This document shows positions 50,921 through 62,642 of a DNA stretch of 64,000 nucleotides, in pieces. The stretch's first letter is position 1; each line of letters opens with the position of its first letter. This DNA is from Chlorobiota bacterium (GTDB taxonomy: Bacteria > Bacteroidota > Ignavibacteria > OLB7), in the NCBI GenBank assembly GCA_028287785.1, contig JAQBOZ010000009.1, positions 124,001 through 188,000 on the forward strand. Direction: 5' to 3'. Below the pieces are notes generated by a model. That model ran no database searches. It worked only from the letters and a program-made list of their open reading frames with translations, and was not told the DNA's origin. A program made the position numbers and the translations under genes.

Positions 50921-51098
50921 GGTAGTGTCTCAGTTTGAGAAGAAGAGCCATCTCTACCACTGCGTCTTGTCATCCCTGCGCAAGCGGAGATCCATCTGCC
51001 AGCCGTATTGATTCCCGCTTGCGCGGGAATGACAGTCAGAACCTGAGCCTACCAGCCTCGCTCATCAACCACCAGCTACCCCAAACTGAGACACTACC
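50921..51098. repeat. MITE-like repeat with terminal inverted repeats, copy 1
   Basis: Perfect 17-bp ends GGTAGTGTCTCAGTTTG and CAAACTGAGACACTACC. The interior matches the 139-bp copy at 60104-60242 but has an extra ~40 bp containing CCCGCTTGCGCGGGAATGAC, a known extragenic palindrome. It contains no gene. It sits exactly at the end of an IS3 OrfB remnant. Confidence 0.85.
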
Positions 51099-51668
51099 GG
51101 GCTACAGGTGATGATCCGTCCCCAGGGAAGCGCGGCGACCGACCGGATGGCCGGGATACAGTGATGCCATGTTTACAGTTCCACGACAACCGCAAGCATG
51201 GCATCACCATCGTCTCTAAATTCATTACCGATCGAAGCTGGACACGCCAATCGGAACCACGGCAGATGATGGCTGGACCCGTCATCTCCGTCAACCACGA
51301 TACAAAGCTACGTCCCTGAGATGAGGAGAAGATGAGCCGGGGCGGAGGCATCCGGAGGGCCGTTCAATCCACGTTTTCAATTCCTACGCAGCAATGGTGA
51401 GACGATAGCGGAGAACGCTTGCATTATCGCACCATTATCATAGGTAATAATACGAAGGTTTTCGGCCCTCGCAACCGCATCAGAAACCTGCTGAACCATC
51501 AGCCCGACCAGATCCACCACAGCCATCGATTGCAAACGCTCATAACACGTCTATTCGATCAATGCCGGCAGGACGATCAACTTTCAATATCATTCCGTGT
51601 GATATATCTTGTGTTGTACTCCCCGCCAGTCTCCCAGTTCACTCAGCATGCCATAGGAGAATTCCACA
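51099..51668. other. Non-coding stretch with repeat traces
   Basis: No gene I can support. It contains an 11-bp inverted repeat GTGATGCCATG / CATGGCATCAC (51161-51171, 51197-51207) and, at 51433-51545, a copy of a 113-bp repeat that recurs at 54987-55099. On the minus strand both copies read as similar protein pieces, here V-D-L-V-G-L-M-V-Q-Q-V and L-R-I-I-T-Y-D-N-G. Confidence 0.4.
51433..51545 (-). repeat. 113-bp dispersed repeat, copy 1 (gene fragment)
   Basis: Aligns over its whole length with 54987-55099, about three quarters identical by eye. Both read on the minus strand as V-D-L-x-G ... R-I-I-T-x-D-N, so the repeat is a piece of a coding region. The parent gene is not in the window. 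Confidence 0.55.
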
Positions 51669-52758: not shown

Positions 52759-53373
52759 TCAGTTAATTGTCGTCGTCTGACTGGTAAGCGTGAAGGCAGT
52801 CACACCTGGCTGCGTGGGATCTTCGAAATCGATCTTGTCGTTGACCAGCGACCAGGACTCGTTGATCTGGGGATCCCAGGAGTTCAGATTCCTGTTCTGG
52901 AGATGCTGCTCCTGGATGGCCGAGTAGACCACACCCGGATGGCTGGAGAGCGTCACCGTGGGATAGAAATAGAGGTCGCCAGTTGCCGGGAATCTGGAAG
53001 CGGCGGTATTCGACTGCACCACCGTGTTCCTCGTCTGCTTCGACTGATCGAAGCCGGTGGTGAAGGCCCCCTGCGTAGGACTGACGCCGTTGAAGTTGAG
53101 CGATGCCGGTGTGATCGTCTCCGACCACGGAGACTCGGTAGAAGCAATATTGTTGAAGTTGCCCGTACCATTGGCTGTCAGTGTCTCGGTTCCTCCGCCA
53201 AAGGCAAGACTGAACCTGATCGTGATGGTGATCGTGATCGTGCAGGGTCTTGATACGGGACATGGCTGGGGAAGGGGTGCCGGGGTAGCGGCCCCCGCCA
53301 AATGGGGTGTGAAGCCCATTACCCCCAGAACTATAAGGGCAGTGGAAAGAAGTCTGCTTGTTCTTGCTTTCAT
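52759..53373 (-). CDS. Secreted protein of unknown function
   Basis: 204 residues. Signal peptide M-K-A-R-T-S-R with a hydrophobic core and an A-G-A-A end near 29. The mature part starts with a Cys pair (P-C-P-V-S-R-P-C), then T-I-T-I-T-I-T-I and long beta-rich stretches with many Thr/Asn. It is probably extracellular or periplasmic; no motif is recognised. The minus-strand upstream gap includes no clear promoter. Confidence 0.7.
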   Translation of the reverse strand: MKARTSRLLSTALIVLGVMGFTPHLAGAATPAPLPQPCPVSRPCTITITITIRFSLAFGGGTETLTANGTGNFNNIASTESPWSETITPASLNFNGVSPTQGAFTTGFDQSKQTRNTVVQSNTAASRFPATGDLYFYPTVTLSSHPGVVYSAIQEQHLQNRNLNSWDPQINESWSLVNDKIDFEDPTQPGVTAFTLTSQTTTIN

Positions 53374-53819
53374 GATGTTACTCCTTTGATTGTATGAGGG
53401 ACGGTTATGGGAGCGTTGTCATCTGATTCAGTAAATGTAATAGACAACCACTATTGACTTCGATCGACATGCCCTCCTCCAATACCGTAACGAGAGCAGG
53501 ACGAATGGTATCTCGATGCGCAATGCAGATTGTCCGATACATTCGGTACAAACTTACCGTGAACATTCGCGGAGAATTTCTTCCCGATTGCTGATCGCTC
53601 GTTGCCGTGCAACCCGTATAGCACCTGCGCTTGTACAGCCGCTCATGCAGGAAGCAGATTCGCCATCGCATGGGTTTCTACCACTCGTCGGCGGATTGCC
53701 GGAAAGTCCCCAGAAAGTATCGGATGATGGAGATGATGTGGTGAACCAGAAGAATATATCCGCATGGAGAAACCATGCGCCGAGATGAAACAACCCCCTC
53801 GTGGGAGATCGCGATGCCG
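53374..53819. other. Gap with ambiguous short frames
   Basis: Three overlapping minus-strand frames could each encode 30-90 residues, one of them beginning in the stop codon of the lipoprotein gene (GTGA overlap). None shows a domain or sustained protein character, so I leave it unassigned. It may hold one small gene damaged by a frame error. Confidence 0.3.
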
Positions 53820-54995
53820 TCACCGTTGTGGTGAACCGATGATCAGTGGGGGAGCGAATCCCCCTTCGTAGGTATAGCCGGTGGGATATAGCGTCCTGTG
53901 AGCGATCCTGTAGGCGGTGATCCTGCCATCATAGTCCCTGTCGTCCAGGCTCGTCTGTGAGGGAGGAAGTTGTGCGATACGGCTCCAGCTCCCCGGATCG
54001 GTCGGGTGGAAGGTTCGGTAGACATCGTATCCGGCGATTGGGACCGGCCTTACCGAATCGGTGCTGTTGGACCACTCCAAATGAACGCCGCCAATCTTTC
54101 CGCGACTCCAGCGTGACCCGGTGGTATCGAACACCAGCGTGCGGGTGATCCTCGGCGGCTTGGTGAAGTATGCGCTTGCCCCCTGGCCGAAGGTGAGGCT
54201 GGCCTCCGTTACCGTTACCAGCGGAGGAGCCGCTGTATCGGCCATGTTCCGCTCGTGGTAGAATAAGAGGGGACGCGCCGCGAGATGAAGAACGGCGCCA
54301 TAGGGAGGCCATGAGGACGCATGCCCCTCCAGCACCTCCTTCGACCGGGTTGCCATCCGGATGGGAACCGAGGCCCCCTTAAAAATCACATTCAGGTACA
54401 ACCGACCGCGTAGCGAGATATCGAAGCCTCCTGATCCCGATCGCCGTGGACGCGCGGTAAGCTCCCCCCCCTCATTATCCATGAACACCACCCACTGGAT
54501 GGTGTAGGGAGAATCGAGCCGACCAAACTGCGCGAATCTGGAAATGGTCAATGCCGCATCCCTCGATGTCCCGCCGAAGCACGCTAAACCGACGCTGTTC
54601 GACAACTTGTCGGAGTGAAGCTCAATATTGTGCCCCATAGCCCGCGCGGAGACATCAAACGACAGGGGGAGGGAAAGAAGATCGGCCTGAGATCCCTCGG
54701 GGACCGTTACCGGGACCACAGAGCCGGGGATACCTCTTCTCTTCCTGTTGGTCCCGGCAGTCGCCGTATCCCCCATCCCAATCGTATCTCTGTCGGTCAC
54801 ATCGACGGAAGTCCCGGTATTGATGGTAGCGTGCGCCTGGGGACTTGATCGAATACCGCCATGAGGGAGCCCCCGCGCCGGAGAGTACTCTCCGCATCCA
54901 TTCATCATCGACCATGCTGCGGCGACCATGCCCATCAGCATCAAGACGCGGGCCAGACACCGACTGGCACTTCCCCGATAGACATTCATTATCAT
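53820..54995 (-). CDS. Lipoprotein with an FN3-like end
   Basis: 391 residues. The signal is M-I-M-N-V-Y-R-G ... M-M-N-G-C with the lipid Cys at about 34. A Thr/Gly-rich segment (about 40-95) leads to beta-rich sequence. The C-terminal ~90 residues read V-H-L-E-W-S-N-S ... G-Y-D-V-Y-R-T and Y-R-I-A-H-R-T, the pattern of a fibronectin type III domain. Cell-surface role likely. Its start lies inside the 113-bp repeat at 54987-55099, so its promoter region was shaped by that repeat. Confidence 0.7.
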   Translation of the reverse strand: MIMNVYRGSASRCLARVLMLMGMVAAAWSMMNGCGEYSPARGLPHGGIRSSPQAHATINTGTSVDVTDRDTIGMGDTATAGTNRKRRGIPGSVVPVTVPEGSQADLLSLPLSFDVSARAMGHNIELHSDKLSNSVGLACFGGTSRDAALTISRFAQFGRLDSPYTIQWVVFMDNEGGELTARPRRSGSGGFDISLRGRLYLNVIFKGASVPIRMATRSKEVLEGHASSWPPYGAVLHLAARPLLFYHERNMADTAAPPLVTVTEASLTFGQGASAYFTKPPRITRTLVFDTTGSRWSRGKIGGVHLEWSNSTDSVRPVPIAGYDVYRTFHPTDPGSWSRIAQLPPSQTSLDDRDYDGRITAYRIAHRTLYPTGYTYEGGFAPPLIIGSPQR

Positions 54996-55099
54996 GGGTA
55001 ATAATACGGACGGTTTTCGACCTTAGCAACCACTTCAGGAACACCGCTACATCACCCCCAATCAGATCCACCGCAGCCGTTGATTGCAGACGCTCACAA
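54987..55099 (-). repeat. 113-bp dispersed repeat, copy 2
   Basis: Matches 51433-51545. On the minus strand it reads V-D-L-I-G-G-D-V-A-V and V-R-I-I-T-H-D-N-E. The start codon of the lipoprotein gene lies at its left edge. Confidence 0.55.
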
Positions 55100-55304
55100 T
55101 GCCTCTACTTGACATCGCGGTCTACGATCTGATGGGCCGTTCCATCGTGAAGCTGGACCGCGATGTCTGGAACGATCATGGAGAACCAACCGCACTGATT
55201 GACCTGAACGGAGTAGTAAGTGGGATGTATATTTTTCCGTTGTGCGTGCCACGGGCAGCACCAATGCCGGCACCGGCACGAGCCGCTTCCTGTTGACGCA
55301 CTAG
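55096..55304 (+). pseudogene. Orphan T9SS sorting-domain remnant
   Basis: Reads L-L-D-I-A-V-Y-D-L-M-G-R-S-I and L-I-D-L-N-G-V-V-S-G-M-Y-I-F, the second half of a type A sorting domain, then loses frame in the T-run 55232-55236. One extra T restores S-V-V-R-A-T-G-S and a natural end F-L-L-T-H. It is the tail of a lost T9SS cargo gene. Confidence 0.65.
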
Positions 55305-55354
55305 GAGAAGTCAAACGCAAGATCAATTATCCAGCCCGGCGCAAGCGCAACGCC

Positions 55355-55824
55355 TTATCGTAAATGGGTTACGATCCAGGAGAATTCGTCTTTTACATTA
55401 ACATTCCCCAATACCTGATCAGTACATATTAACTTCCTGAACTTCGGAACTGCCTGTTGCAAATCCTCAATGGATAGTATGATCTTCTTGTCGATGGATA
55501 TCTTATCACCGTTGGTAAGCTCAAGTCCTATAAACCGGCTTCTCCCAATGCTATCGAGTACTTCATTGTACGGCGCCACCAAAAAAAATTTCGATCATTA
55601 CCCAGCGCATCACCCTTCATAATCAAAATCACCCTACTGGTCGATTTTTCTTCTTCCACCGATGTTACTTCTGATGTATCAAATGTGAAGGGATTTCCAT
55701 TTGAAAGCTTAACGATCAACAGCTGACCGCCGGTGCGAACCTGAGCACCTACTTTTAACGTATTTACAGAACACAGAAGTATTCCCCAAAGACACGATAT
55801 CGCAATGAACATCATTCTCTTCAT
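55355..55824 (-). pseudogene. Small secreted protein gene broken in an A8/T8 run
   Basis: The 5' part (from 55824) starts with a signal peptide (M-K-R-M-M-F-I-A-I-S) and L-L-I-V-K-L-S-N-G-N-P-F. The 3' part (55355-55582) reads L-V-A-P-Y-N-E-V-L-D-S-I-G-R and L-T-N-G-D-K-I-S-I. Both repeat a 'K-L-S-N-G / L-T-N-G' strand pattern. One more base in the run 55581-55588 joins them into one ~155-residue protein. Either a true frameshift or an error; function unknown. Confidence 0.55.
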
Positions 55825-56246
55825 GTTGCCCCCAGTTAATGGATTATGGAAAACGGGCCATCATAGTTAAAAGCCGGCCCATAAAGTGAGAATCGAAAAA
55901 ACGCTGGAGGGGAGATTAGACAAGCGGCACCGCATATCCGCTATCCGCATCGTGCTTGCCATAAGCTGCGTGAATGGCGGGGATGGTCACATCGCAAAAT
56001 GTGAAGCCCAAACCGCAGATACAATCACCGCTCCGCACACTCCAGAACACGCTATTTTCCATTTCCGAAAACCTTCTCCCCCGTTCCTGTCCAGATCAGA
56101 AGTTGTCGTCTTTTCCAGTGTTTCCGACCACGACGGAACGGGACCAAATGATTAGAGGGGGGGCTAGGATGTGTCGGGTTAACGTGAACGAGTGCAAGAT
56201 AACTAAATTTATCTTGCACTCGTAAAACTCTCAGACAGTCCAGCTT
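55825..56246. other. Gap ending in a perfect 14-bp hairpin
   Basis: No gene supported. At 56189-56222 a perfect 14-bp stem (CGAGTGCAAGATAA and its complement) with a 6-nt loop lies just downstream of the minus-strand gene at 56247, probably its terminator. Confidence 0.45.
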
Positions 56247-56468
56247 CTACCCATCCGTGCAACTTGATCCTGTCTTTACCCACCCCTTATTGGTACACTT
56301 AAACTGCACCTTGTTACGGCACTTCAGTGTACCAATAGACCATTCCTGTCCATCCCATGTACAACTAGTACCTACGGCCTCAGAAGGGCCAGCCGCTGCT
56401 GCCGCGTCCTCCTCGGAATCATACAGGGGGCCAGTAACACCCTTCGGATCATCATATTCTGAATCCAT
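56247..56468 (-). CDS. Small Cys-containing protein
   Basis: 73 residues; the ATG has GGAGG 5 nt upstream on the minus strand. An acidic, Ala-rich first half (E-E-D-A-A-A-A-A-G) is followed by C-T-W-D-G-Q-E-W-S and two C-x(4-10)-C-like pairs. It resembles a secreted Cys-knot type peptide, but has no signal sequence. A hairpin follows on the 3' side. Function unknown. Confidence 0.55.
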   Translation of the reverse strand: MDSEYDDPKGVTGPLYDSEEDAAAAAGPSEAVGTSCTWDGQEWSIGTLKCRNKVQFKCTNKGWVKTGSSCTDG

Positions 56469-57335: not shown

Positions 57336-58937
57336 TTAAAATTGGAATCGGTACTCGACGCCGGCCCCAAGCCCGATGGCTTCAAAAATTTCGGAGCGCT
57401 GACCTATGCGATCCAGTATTAACTGGGTCCAGCCAGACCATCCTATGCAGGTGATTAAAGACACAGCATGAGATAGAGGTATCTGTCCGACAATGTTCAA
57501 CCCGTAACGATCGCTCCACATGGCGCCAGTAACCGCCTTTCCCCAAGATAGATCCATTTCAATCATCCCGCCATTATAGTATCGCACGATCGGGATGCCT
57601 ACGTTGCCGGAGATCCAGATCGCATTGTAGTCATAGCTATAAGAAGAAAGGTACGCGCCCCTTATGCCGAACCCGGCGTATATCGGCACATCGAAAATGG
57701 TAACCATCTTGGATGAAAAGTCTATTGTCGCGGAACCAGTAGTTGTCGTATGAATCATCAGATAAACCGATGCTCTGGTGCGTGTGGTTTCGGGCTGGAG
57801 ATCATAGGATCCTGAACCGGCTTCACGGAGCAGGTCCGCTACTTCGGCGTGCCAGCGCTCCAGCGCGATCAGCATTGCGGTCCGGCCGCGGTCATCGCGC
57901 ATATGAACGTTCGCGTCACGACGCAGCAACGCGACCACGATATCGACACGCCCATTCCGGGCAGCCATCATCAATGCCGTAAACCCGTTCGCATCCTGCA
58001 CATCGACAAACATTCCGGCGTCGAGAAATTTCTCGACGAGGCGTACATCTCCGCGGCCAGCCTGGGCAATAAATCCGTCCACGTTGTAGTCGACACTATC
58101 CTTCTGCAACTCATTCCGGGCGCCGTTCGGCCTCGTGGTGCTCTCGCCATCCAGGGAAAAAAGAAATGTGGGATTCTGACTCTGCAGACGCTTCAATACA
58201 CGACTGGTGTCTGGTCTGTACCAATGAATTTCACACCACGGGATGGCCCAGCAGATTTTGGTGCTGCCGCCTCCCAGGCCTCCATTTGAAACTCCTATGA
58301 CATGTCCGCTATCGTCCAGAAGGGGGGAGCCGGAATCACCGGGATGCAGGACATCTTCGACACTGATGACGAATCCATCGATATGCGGGCTGCCACGTTC
58401 ACCCAATGCATCGAAGTCGGTCGGTGGTACCAGCTCGCGCAATTGCTGGCGAGGCGTCTCACGCAATGCCACCCGCGATGATACGACCGATGAAATACCG
58501 AATGGATGGCTGAACATCCGCAACTGCCTGAGATGTATCCAATTCTGCGACGTGTCCGCGTCCAGGCCATCGTCCGATATGGTCGTGGAATCGTTCGAGG
58601 TCAGAAAAGCGACATCATGCTCTACGTCCACCAGCGCGATGTGCATTTTGCCCTTGAACTGAGGCGCGTCGTCCAACCCGAATACACGTATGTCTCCCCT
58701 GCTGTCGGCATCGGCAACGCCGTGCAGCGCCGTGACGAAACCTCGAAGCCCACGAACCCTGAAGCCCGTCAGAACCCGGGTTGCCGTTCCCTTATCGCTG
58801 ATGCGGGCACGAATCAGATAGATGTTTCTTTTTACGCTATCCTGTATATCGAGGACATGCTGTGCGCTCGCATTGATCGAACACGCGGTTGCCATCAGAG
58901 ATACGAGAAGAGCACATGGAATCATTTTCTTGTGCAT
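57336..58937 (-). CDS. Exported trypsin-like protease fused to ankyrin repeats and a barrel-like C-terminus
   Basis: 533 residues from ATG (M-H-K-K-M-I-P) with GGAGG just upstream; a longer in-frame start lacks an RBS. Export signal ends A-T-A-C or A-S-A-Q. The catalytic triad of a chymotrypsin-fold protease is visible: His72 (T-A-L-H-G-V), Asp108 (V-E-H-D-V-A-F-L) and Ser202 (P-G-D-S-G-S-P). Ankyrin repeats follow at about 315-380 (G-F-T-A-L-M-M-A-A-R-N-G-R). The last ~150 residues alternate beta strands with Gly/Tyr and end in Phe, as in outer-membrane barrels. It overlaps the upstream membrane-protein gene by 16 bp. The combination is unusual. Confidence 0.8.
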   Translation of the reverse strand: MHKKMIPCALLVSLMATACSINASAQHVLDIQDSVKRNIYLIRARISDKGTATRVLTGFRVRGLRGFVTALHGVADADSRGDIRVFGLDDAPQFKGKMHIALVDVEHDVAFLTSNDSTTISDDGLDADTSQNWIHLRQLRMFSHPFGISSVVSSRVALRETPRQQLRELVPPTDFDALGERGSPHIDGFVISVEDVLHPGDSGSPLLDDSGHVIGVSNGGLGGGSTKICWAIPWCEIHWYRPDTSRVLKRLQSQNPTFLFSLDGESTTRPNGARNELQKDSVDYNVDGFIAQAGRGDVRLVEKFLDAGMFVDVQDANGFTALMMAARNGRVDIVVALLRRDANVHMRDDRGRTAMLIALERWHAEVADLLREAGSGSYDLQPETTRTRASVYLMIHTTTTGSATIDFSSKMVTIFDVPIYAGFGIRGAYLSSYSYDYNAIWISGNVGIPIVRYYNGGMIEMDLSWGKAVTGAMWSDRYGLNIVGQIPLSHAVSLITCIGWSGWTQLILDRIGQRSEIFEAIGLGAGVEYRFQF

Positions 58938-59740
58938 GCTTCCTCCAGGAGTTGCTGAAGGCAGGATAGATCGGTGCATTTTCCAGCTGCCTTGCTGAGT
59001 TTCTCGTCGCTGCTGTTTGTCAGCAGCAACCGGAGCCGCTTCTCATTGCTGCGCGCCTCGCGGAGTCGTGCGCAATCATCATCGGAAACGGTAAATAGTC
59101 CCGCCGTCGATGTACCGCGTCCCTGACCGGATTCTTTTTTCTGATGCTCGACACCGGTGTGACCCCGTGCATCGTTGCCGGTCATCTTCTGCATCGGCTG
59201 TGATTCATGCGGTGCATGAGTGGTGGTATCTATTTTCTGCGAATTGGATCCGTCGGAGTGTGCGGATCTACTATCCGGCGGTGACTCATATGTGGAAAAT
59301 CCGGCATCCACACGCTGCACCGGCTCATCAGCGGGATAGAGATTGTTGAGTAGCAGCCGGGTAAGCGTCTTTTCCGAGAGTCCGGTTGGCGCCCATTCCT
59401 GAACAAACCCATGAACATTCGGTCCGAACCAGCCGTTGGTCCGGGCGTAGATGCCCGCTGATGCCCCGGCGGCGAGCCCGATCAGCATCAGAACCACGGG
59501 GCGTGGATCGACGGTATACTGCGGTGCGTGCGGACGAACCTGTAACCCCGCATGTTCATCCGTGCCCGGGTCGTATTTCAAGCCGGCGAGGGTGCTGACT
59601 AGGCCGACCACGAGCGCGATCACACTCGTCAATACGATATGTACGACCGGAGATACCGAGAGGCCCACAAGCCAGCCAACGGCAACTCCACACGGAAAAA
59701 GCCAGAGCACAACGCCTTTCCTGGCAGCAGCAACAATCAT
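58922..59740 (-). CDS. Three-TM protein, partner of the protease gene
   Basis: 272 residues. TM segments at about 7-25 (V-V-L-W-L-F-P-C-G), 28-52 (V-V-H-I-V-L-T-S-V-I-A-L) and 84-102 (L-M-L-I-G-L-A-A-G-A). A hydrophilic His/Ser-rich linker and a C-terminal helix with D-C-A-R-L-R-E-A and C-T-D-L-S-C-L-Q-Q-L follow. The gene ends inside the protease gene, so the two are co-translated. Role unknown; it may anchor or sense for the protease. Confidence 0.65.
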   Translation of the reverse strand: MIVAAARKGVVLWLFPCGVAVGWLVGLSVSPVVHIVLTSVIALVVGLVSTLAGLKYDPGTDEHAGLQVRPHAPQYTVDPRPVVLMLIGLAAGASAGIYARTNGWFGPNVHGFVQEWAPTGLSEKTLTRLLLNNLYPADEPVQRVDAGFSTYESPPDSRSAHSDGSNSQKIDTTTHAPHESQPMQKMTGNDARGHTGVEHQKKESGQGRGTSTAGLFTVSDDDCARLREARSNEKRLRLLLTNSSDEKLSKAAGKCTDLSCLQQLLEEACTRK

Positions 59741-60103: not shown

Positions 60104-60242
60104 GGTAGTGTCTCAGTTTGAGAAGAAGAGTCATCGCTACCACTGCGTCTTGTCATCCCCGCGCAAGCAGGGATGACAGTCAGAACCTGAGCCTACCAGC
60201 CTCGCTCATCAACCACCGGCTACTCCAAACTGAGACACTACC
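60104..60242. repeat. MITE-like repeat with terminal inverted repeats, copy 2
   Basis: The same 17-bp ends as copy 1 (GGTAGTGTCTCAGTTTG / CAAACTGAGACACTACC), 139 bp long. GTT lies on both sides, a possible 3-bp target duplication. It has no coding capacity. Confidence 0.85.
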
Positions 60243-60990
60243 GTTCTTATCGATCATTTTCCCTTGTAGTAGAGTTACTCGATATCGCTCTATCGTGCCT
60301 TCCGATCGAGCGCGCTGATTCAAATCTTCAGCTTCGTGGCACTATTCCCTGCCAAGTTGATACCACACGGACGTAACGATCGACCATCTGGCAGGACGTG
60401 TGGCCGGATGTGCGTAAGCAATCCGATGGGAGGTTAATGCCGCAGCAGGATACCCGAGCCGACCCCCGCCATGCACCGCGTAGCGCTCCAGCACCGGCAA
60501 CCCCAGAAGGCCAAATTGTAGCACATAGTGGACTCACCCGCGCGTTCGGTGGTGTGGCCGATGTCGCAGAAGTTGAAGCCCTTCTGAGCTAACCCGTCCC
60601 CGTAGCGGCATCCGGTTGACCGGATGCCCGGCCCCGCGTTTCGTACTATTCAACATAATCCTCGATATGAGGGACGTGCGTGGCGGGACACTCGGCCCCA
60701 TCGCGTTCAGAACGATGATGTTCACCGGATCGACTCCCGCGCCGAAGCTCCTGCTTACCTGACTGCCAACGGCCGAACAGGGCGATGTCTCGACCGGAAG
60801 ATTCAGATCCCGGACCCCGTGCGGGCTCGGCCCGATCGCGAAGACCGGAATCCGACCTACCATCGCATGCTGCGCGAAGGTTCTCGCTCCAATCATAGGC
60901 TGAGGGAAGACCATGCGTGGCTTGCAACGCGCTGAGGCGTGTAGAACGATGCGAGATGATCAGGATACCGCTCCAACGCGCTCCGTGCGT
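60243..60990. other. Unassigned region with one unit of a dispersed repeat
   Basis: About 750 bp where all frames give mixed, uncertain protein sense on both strands. At about 60505-60555 it carries CCAAATTGTAGCACA(T)AGT and GTTCGG, an inverted relative of the tandem units at 62.4-62.6 kb. I cannot support a gene here. It may be remains of mobile-element genes. Confidence 0.3.
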
Positions 60991-62174: not shown

Positions 62175-62642
62175 TCAGAACATCATTCCTCGTGCATACG
62201 CGCTCGGATACCGGCGATAACGCCGTCCGGTCGTTGCTGAAATCCCCATCACGTTGTTGCGCGAACGTGGACCCGCCGGCGGCTCGGCCAAGGGTATGGC
62301 TTCCAACCAATTGATCTCCATCAGCAGGATCGTGCTCCCCCGCAGGCACTCCCACTCCGGGAGTGTCTGCTCCCGACGCTGGTACCGCGAACGGGGGGAC
62401 ACCGGACTGTGTGCTACAATTTGGCCCAGTACGGCTACCGCTACCGGCCTCCAGGCGACGAGCAGGATCGCGCGCTTTCGCATGCGCTCCCACCCCCGCA
62501 GATGGTGGTACCGCGAACGGGCGGGCACCGACTGTGTGCGACAATTTGGCCCGGTACGGCTACCGGCCTCCAAGCGACGACGATCGCACGAAGGGGGTCC
62601 GGTAGCAGAGCGGACGGAACGATCGATGGGGGATTCATCCAT
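62175..62642 (-). CDS. Predicted protein over a tandem repeat, low confidence
   Basis: 155 residues starting M-D-E-S-P-I-D. The start overlaps the end of the next upstream gene by 8 nt (ATGGATGA), a sign of translation coupling. Within it two units show similar sense: R-S-R-Y-H-H-L-R-G-W-E-R-M-R-K-R and R-S-R-Y-Q-R ... W-E-C-L-R-G. The composition is Arg-rich and could be an artefact of the repeat. Function unknown. Confidence 0.3.
   Translation of the reverse strand: MDESPIDRSVRSATGPPSCDRRRLEAGSRTGPNCRTQSVPARSRYHHLRGWERMRKRAILLVAWRPVAVAVLGQIVAHSPVSPRSRYQRREQTLPEWECLRGSTILLMEINWLEAIPLAEPPAGPRSRNNVMGISATTGRRYRRYPSAYARGMMF
62381..62595. repeat. Tandem repeat with a 126-bp period
   Basis: GGTACCGCGAACGG starts units at 62381 and 62507; each continues with TGTGTGCTACAATTTGGCC or TGTGTGCGACAATTTGGCC and GTACGGCTACCG. 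A third related unit lies inverted at about 60.5 kb. Confidence 0.6.

Follow-up and report, generated by a model that had tools for sequence, protein, structure and literature searches.

We identified, in the 64,000-nucleotide stretch of DNA analysed here (the window), a pair of overlapping minus-strand genes whose products we call P0001 and P0002. P0001 joins a trypsin-like protease domain with a complete catalytic triad to ankyrin repeats and to a C-terminus with a beta pattern and atypical codon usage, and neither this fusion nor P0002 was found in the sampled relatives. Our preferred reading, to which we give about an even chance, is a lineage-restricted mosaic: a periplasmic serine protease tethered at the outer membrane, with ligand-docking ankyrins and a co-translated inner-membrane partner. 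Export, barrel formation, membrane topology, partnership and activity of the two proteins are predictions within this reading.

Organization of the gene pair

The coordinates and strand given in an initial annotation of this DNA agree with both minus-strand open reading frames (ORFs), and its 16-bp overlap between the protease and membrane protein genes was borne out. The features of the locus are as follows (all on the minus strand).

58922–59740: P0002, 272 aa, the upstream gene
57336–58937: P0001, 533 aa; from the N-terminus, a signal peptide, the Trypsin_2 protease, roughly three ankyrin repeats and a Phe-ended C-terminus with a beta pattern, probably a small outer-membrane beta-barrel
58922–58937: 16-bp overlap of P0001 and P0002 (P0002 stop 58924–58922, P0001 start 58937–58935)
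58942–58946: GGAGG, ribosome-binding-like site, 4 bases 5′ of the P0001 ATG, within P0002
58863–58937: signal peptide, approx. residues 1–25 of P0001, hydrophobic core and ATACSINASAQ
58290–58769: protease core, residues 57–216, Trypsin_2 match with catalytic His72, Asp108 and Ser202 (GDSGSP)
57798–58073: ankyrin repeats, approx. residues 289–380, Ank families over cut-off
57339–57785: beta-patterned C-terminus, residues 385–533, Phe-ended, probable outer-membrane barrel, most atypical codons

The mechanically called ORF of P0001 begins at 58979, 14 codons before the ATG at 58937. The latter was chosen as the start because of the upstream GGAGG, the 16-bp overlap and the exact numbering of His72, Asp108 and Ser202 that it yields. 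The GGAGG and the overlap make translational coupling of the two genes likely, and their order suggests that they may form a functional unit. A promoter and terminator scan gave counts near expectation (6 promoter-like sites vs. 3.6 expected, 1 terminator-like site vs. 3.4), and therefore nothing to rely on.

The partner had been described as a protein with three transmembrane segments, and P0002 indeed contains three hydrophobic segments predicted to span the membrane (about residues 8–28, 30–52 and 80–99), followed by a hydrophilic tail of 174 residues with cysteines at positions 223, 255, 260 and 269. Its reading frame is favoured by codon statistics, and a Pfam search of P0002 returned no family over the cut-off. 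The positive-inside rule, applied by eye, would place the N-terminus inside and the tail in the periplasm, where the cysteines could pair.

Signal peptide and protease domain

The N-terminal ATACSINASAQ is a probable signal peptidase I site, while ATAC (residues 16–19) could alternatively be read as a lipobox. The proposed chymotrypsin-fold protease with an intact His72-Asp108-Ser202 triad was confirmed at the level of domain and residues: Trypsin_2 (PF13365) matches P0001 over the cut-off (31.6 vs. 27.6 bits, E 3.1e-7, Pfam; 33.8 bits in the genome search), and when P0001 was aligned with seven Trypsin_2-type proteins, all three catalytic positions proved invariant. P0001 is a predicted secreted protease. 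A PDB sequence search with the protease part yielded nothing stronger than E 0.0018, and most of these weak matches centred on the Ser motif.

P0001 resembles the Trypsin_2/S1C proteins (HtrA/DegP relatives) in the His-Asp-Ser order, the GxSG motif and the export signal. It differs from them in its Ser motif (GDSGSP where they have GNSGGP), in an insertion of approx. 17–23 residues before the Ser strand, and in carrying ankyrins plus a beta C-terminus in place of a PDZ domain; identity is 19–26%. Pfam found no PDZ domain in P0001 and the degP_htrA_DO model, whose cut-off is 416 bits, scored only 17, which places the protein outside the HtrA/DegP family proper.

Two exported-looking proteins of the class (L033 and L038) share with P0001 a signal-peptide-like start and a Trypsin_2 domain followed by a repeat solenoid; unlike P0001, they carry TPR instead of ankyrin repeats, have no beta C-terminus and place the Ser in GSSGG/GSSGS. 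The combination of protease and repeats is thus a recurrent theme, which lends support to a more ordinary explanation, namely that P0001 is a soluble periplasmic Trypsin_2 protease with incidental repeats and a soluble beta C-terminus, and that P0002 is unrelated to it. We regard this explanation as possible but rather unlikely, in view of the properties of the C-terminus given below.

Ankyrin repeats and their predicted export

Five families (Ank_2, Ank_4, Ank, Ank_5 and Ank_3) exceed the Pfam cut-off at residues 293–374, in agreement with the ankyrin repeats first reported for the protease protein. The layout comprises one canonical repeat (317–349) with a cap-like repeat on either side.

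The initial annotation considered such a protein unusual on the grounds that ankyrin repeats are mostly cytoplasmic. This argument did not hold, since most of the ankyrin matches examined look exported. By a crude test of N-terminal hydrophobicity (best 9-residue mean at least 2.2), this was the case for 3 of the 4 other ankyrin ORFs found in the genome and for 11/17 of those found in related genomes; these figures count best ankyrin matches once each and are no census. Two adjacent exported ankyrin genes with many repeats (ORFs of 219 and 281 aa; L011 1150–2906 and L012 584–2340) were also observed in the same genome. Moreover, a published ankyrin protein, Bd3460 of Bdellovibrio bacteriovorus, is exported to the periplasm and acts there in trans as an inhibitor of peptidoglycan endopeptidases; its best non-predator BLAST match, in Leptospira kirschneri, shares an operon with a protease (PMC4686830). 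Ankyrin export and protease-solenoid fusion are therefore each already known, and it is the triple combination that appears to be new.

Bd3460 is like the proposed P0001 in having periplasmic ankyrins that act on an envelope peptidase, and in its two-gene operon; it differs in being a separate small trans inhibitor with neither a protease domain nor a barrel (PMC4686830). The precedent of Bd3460 and its Leptospira kirschneri match would fit a self-protection or autoinhibition role, with the ankyrins serving as a built-in inhibitor of the P0001 protease or of a partner enzyme. Such a role seems improbable to us: P0001 has about three repeats as against at least six in Bd3460 (of which AR4–6 are named; PMC4686830), and contact between repeats and active site is hypothetical in P0001.

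The C-terminal segment

A beta-rich, Phe-ended C-terminus had been proposed, and this description was upheld by strand-alternation statistics and by the terminal sequence VEYRFQF. The two-residue hydrophobic alternation over residues 385–533 (mean 2.16) was reached by 0.4% of 2000 shuffles. Expressed as z against its own shuffles, the value is 2.81, which falls within the range of 12 OMP_b-brl proteins encoded in this genome (1.47 to 4.61, last 150 residues) and above 85 of 85 soluble trypsin-fold segments (maximum 2.65). Values between −0.6 and 0.75 were obtained for the tail of P0002 and for the remaining parts of P0001. The comparison with the trypsin-fold segments and the C-terminal Phe argue against a soluble protease.

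Profile searches were less clear. OMP_b-brl (PF13505) matched the segment under the cut-off (15.8 vs. 28.7 bits, E 0.016, Pfam), a result which favours the soluble explanation; nine out of nine shuffled versions of the segment gave no match to any OMP family. With a profile built from the 12 barrels of the genome, the segment scored 3.1 bits, a value reached by 25 of 1000 shuffles (116–781 of 1000 for four control segments), while the scores of 10 of 12 left-out barrels were equalled by no more than 1 in 500 shuffles. The C-terminus of P0001 thus scores like the weakest true barrel members. AlphaFold run without homologues (single-sequence mode) gave a pLDDT of 29.5 for full-length P0001 and the last 153 residues alike, and a PDB sequence search with the segment returned nothing useful.

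Apart from P0001 itself, the segment had only two matches in the class (2 of 293 other genomes), a TonB-receptor-like protein of 763 aa and an exported protein of 286 aa. Judged by their sequences, both look like outer-membrane proteins, which again speaks against a soluble segment. The source genome encodes 13 OMP_b-brl matches, and the organism therefore has an outer membrane. The segment shares with OMP_b-brl barrels the alternation, the terminal Phe, the length and a weak profile match, but lies below the curated cut-off and is fused behind a protease and ankyrins. The barrel initially proposed is weakly supported, and we consider a small outer-membrane barrel plausible, indeed likely.

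In type V secretion, a passenger is followed by a C-terminal, Phe-ended barrel. P0001 has this order, and it might accordingly be an autotransporter whose barrel exports protease and ankyrins as its passenger onto the surface of the cell. We hold this to be highly improbable, because the usual autotransporter translocator has 12 strands, for which 149 residues are too short, and the Pfam matches included no Autotransporter family.

Codon usage and surrounding DNA

Synonymous codon usage, referred to eight long ORFs of the window taken as clear genes, came to 0.02 in the signal-protease part and 0.04 in P0002; the ankyrins had 0.08 and the C-terminus −0.198. The last value is below all 84 windows of the reference genes (−0.091 to 0.346), and the last 447 bases of the 13 barrel-match genes of the same genome gave 0.151 to 0.310. 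The GC content of the C-terminal segment (0.494) is also lower than that of the other parts (0.55 and 0.60). Synonymous codons do not set the P0001 frame apart from other frames, but it becomes distinct once amino-acid choice is included.

Such atypical usage fits import or mosaic assembly, and P0001 looks like a recent mosaic gene. The same codons could also mean a non-native reading, which weighs against the mosaic and its barrel. An imported protease-ankyrin frame might have run by chance into noncoding DNA, leaving a decaying or read-through gene, and the C-terminal codon usage, no better than that of other frames and under all reference windows, would be expected in that case. This is nevertheless very unlikely in our estimate, given that 149 codons stay open while the five other frames contain 4–11 stops, and given the rarity of the strand alternation among shuffles.

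Several further elements were observed in the surrounding DNA. Two direct copies of a 140–180 bp element with 17–18 bp inverted ends (GGTAGTGTCTCAGTTTG), 90–93% alike in their shared parts, lie at 50921–51099 and 60104–60243; they are the sole two matches in the genome and bracket a 9-kb stretch that includes P0001 and P0002. A frame abutting the 50921–51099 copy reads like the C-terminus of what we take to be an IS3-type transposase. The motif CTGTGTGC(T/G)ACAATTTGGCCC occurs at 60488–60529, 62405–62440 and 62530–62565; two of the copies are direct and separated by 125 bp, the third is inverted, and another short repeat lies next to the motif.

An 86-aa ORF with a hydrophobic N-terminus is located 117 bp downstream of P0001 (56958–57218, minus strand); it has a weak DUF1771 match, below the cut-off, and may belong to the unit as its third gene. 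Further along, a run of minus-strand ORFs (52759–56468; 204, 391, 98 and 73 aa), several with signal-peptide-like starts, gave no family in Pfam, and this stretch looks like a set of orphan exported genes.

Distribution among relatives

We searched 294 genomes of the class and 395 of the phylum, two overlapping samples that include the source genome. Pairwise, the protease part of P0001 was matched in 11/293 other class and 19/394 other phylum genomes, nearly always in the short stretch where HtrA-like proteins carry their Ser motif. P0002 was matched in one of 293 other class genomes, weakly and over its own low-complexity linker, and in none of 394 in the phylum sample. In the class search, the same-genus genome (G001) and three others of the same family contained no match to the protease, P0002 or the C-terminus; ankyrin-region matches alone were found in G001, G003 and G004, and none in G002.

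Among 145 loci compared, no ORF besides P0001 combined protease and ankyrin matches. An alignment-driven genome search returned 80 generic HtrA-like loci, mostly Ser-motif matches, none with ankyrins in the same ORF, and single-protein searches of genome contigs and viral contigs revealed no relative. In plasmid and phage records P0001 was matched in the ankyrin region only (phage matches span residues 242–410), and P0002 had no match in the plasmid records. No title or abstract beginning in the literature searched, from which subscription papers are mostly absent, named a bacterial trypsin-ankyrin-barrel protein.

At present sampling, the fusion and the P0001/P0002 pair are orphans, with no full-length relative detected for either gene, and this status favours the mosaic reading. 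The initial annotation had allowed that the gene might be a recent fusion absent from relatives, which would count against its proposal, and this applies in part, as both the fusion and P0002 are absent from the sampled relatives. The lack of a conserved partner gene, with a pairing seen in gene order only, weighs against our preferred reading.

A trypsin effector of a conflict system was also considered. The NTP-dependent EAD/death-like systems resemble the pair in combining a trypsin-like peptidase with small partner domains (PMC8195603). Pfam detected no EAD or NTPase families in P0001, P0002, the P0002 tail or seven neighbouring ORFs, and PADLOC returned generic protease and ankyrin matches only. 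The pair differs from these systems in the missing EAD in the P0002 tail, the missing NTPase and the exported protease (PMC8195603), and this candidate was rejected for the absence of an EAD family and the predicted export.

Proposed mechanism and significance

In the favoured mosaic, (i) P0001 would be exported via its signal peptide, and (ii) its C-terminal approx. 149 residues would insert into the outer membrane as a small barrel of about 8–10 strands. An even-stranded barrel has both termini toward the periplasm, so that the protease and ankyrin parts would lie in the periplasm, anchored to the outer membrane. There, (iii) the ankyrins may dock a protein ligand (substrate, inhibitor or partner) next to the trypsin-like active site, and such docking would, we propose, permit selective cleavage at the envelope. 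P0002 (iv) would reside in the inner membrane, with a periplasmic tail that could be ligand, substrate or regulator; a tethered protease plus docking module, perhaps with this tail as its ligand, would be the simplest version. Finally, (v) the unit would have been acquired, or assembled from known domains, recently.

A more elaborate version is a trans-envelope switch, in which the ankyrins hold the P0002 tail until stress or a ligand causes its release or cleavage and a signal crosses the envelope. We consider this version quite doubtful. If true, regulated proteolysis of the envelope would here have a new architecture, brought about by gene fusion within one lineage.

As an orphan whose partner is not conserved, P0001 alone opens no long-standing question. 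Should both the barrel and the pairing be real, it would be an outer-membrane-tethered protease guided by periplasmic ankyrins, an arrangement unseen in the relatives searched. On a smaller scale, P0001 illustrates how new envelope proteins are built from stock domains within a single lineage.
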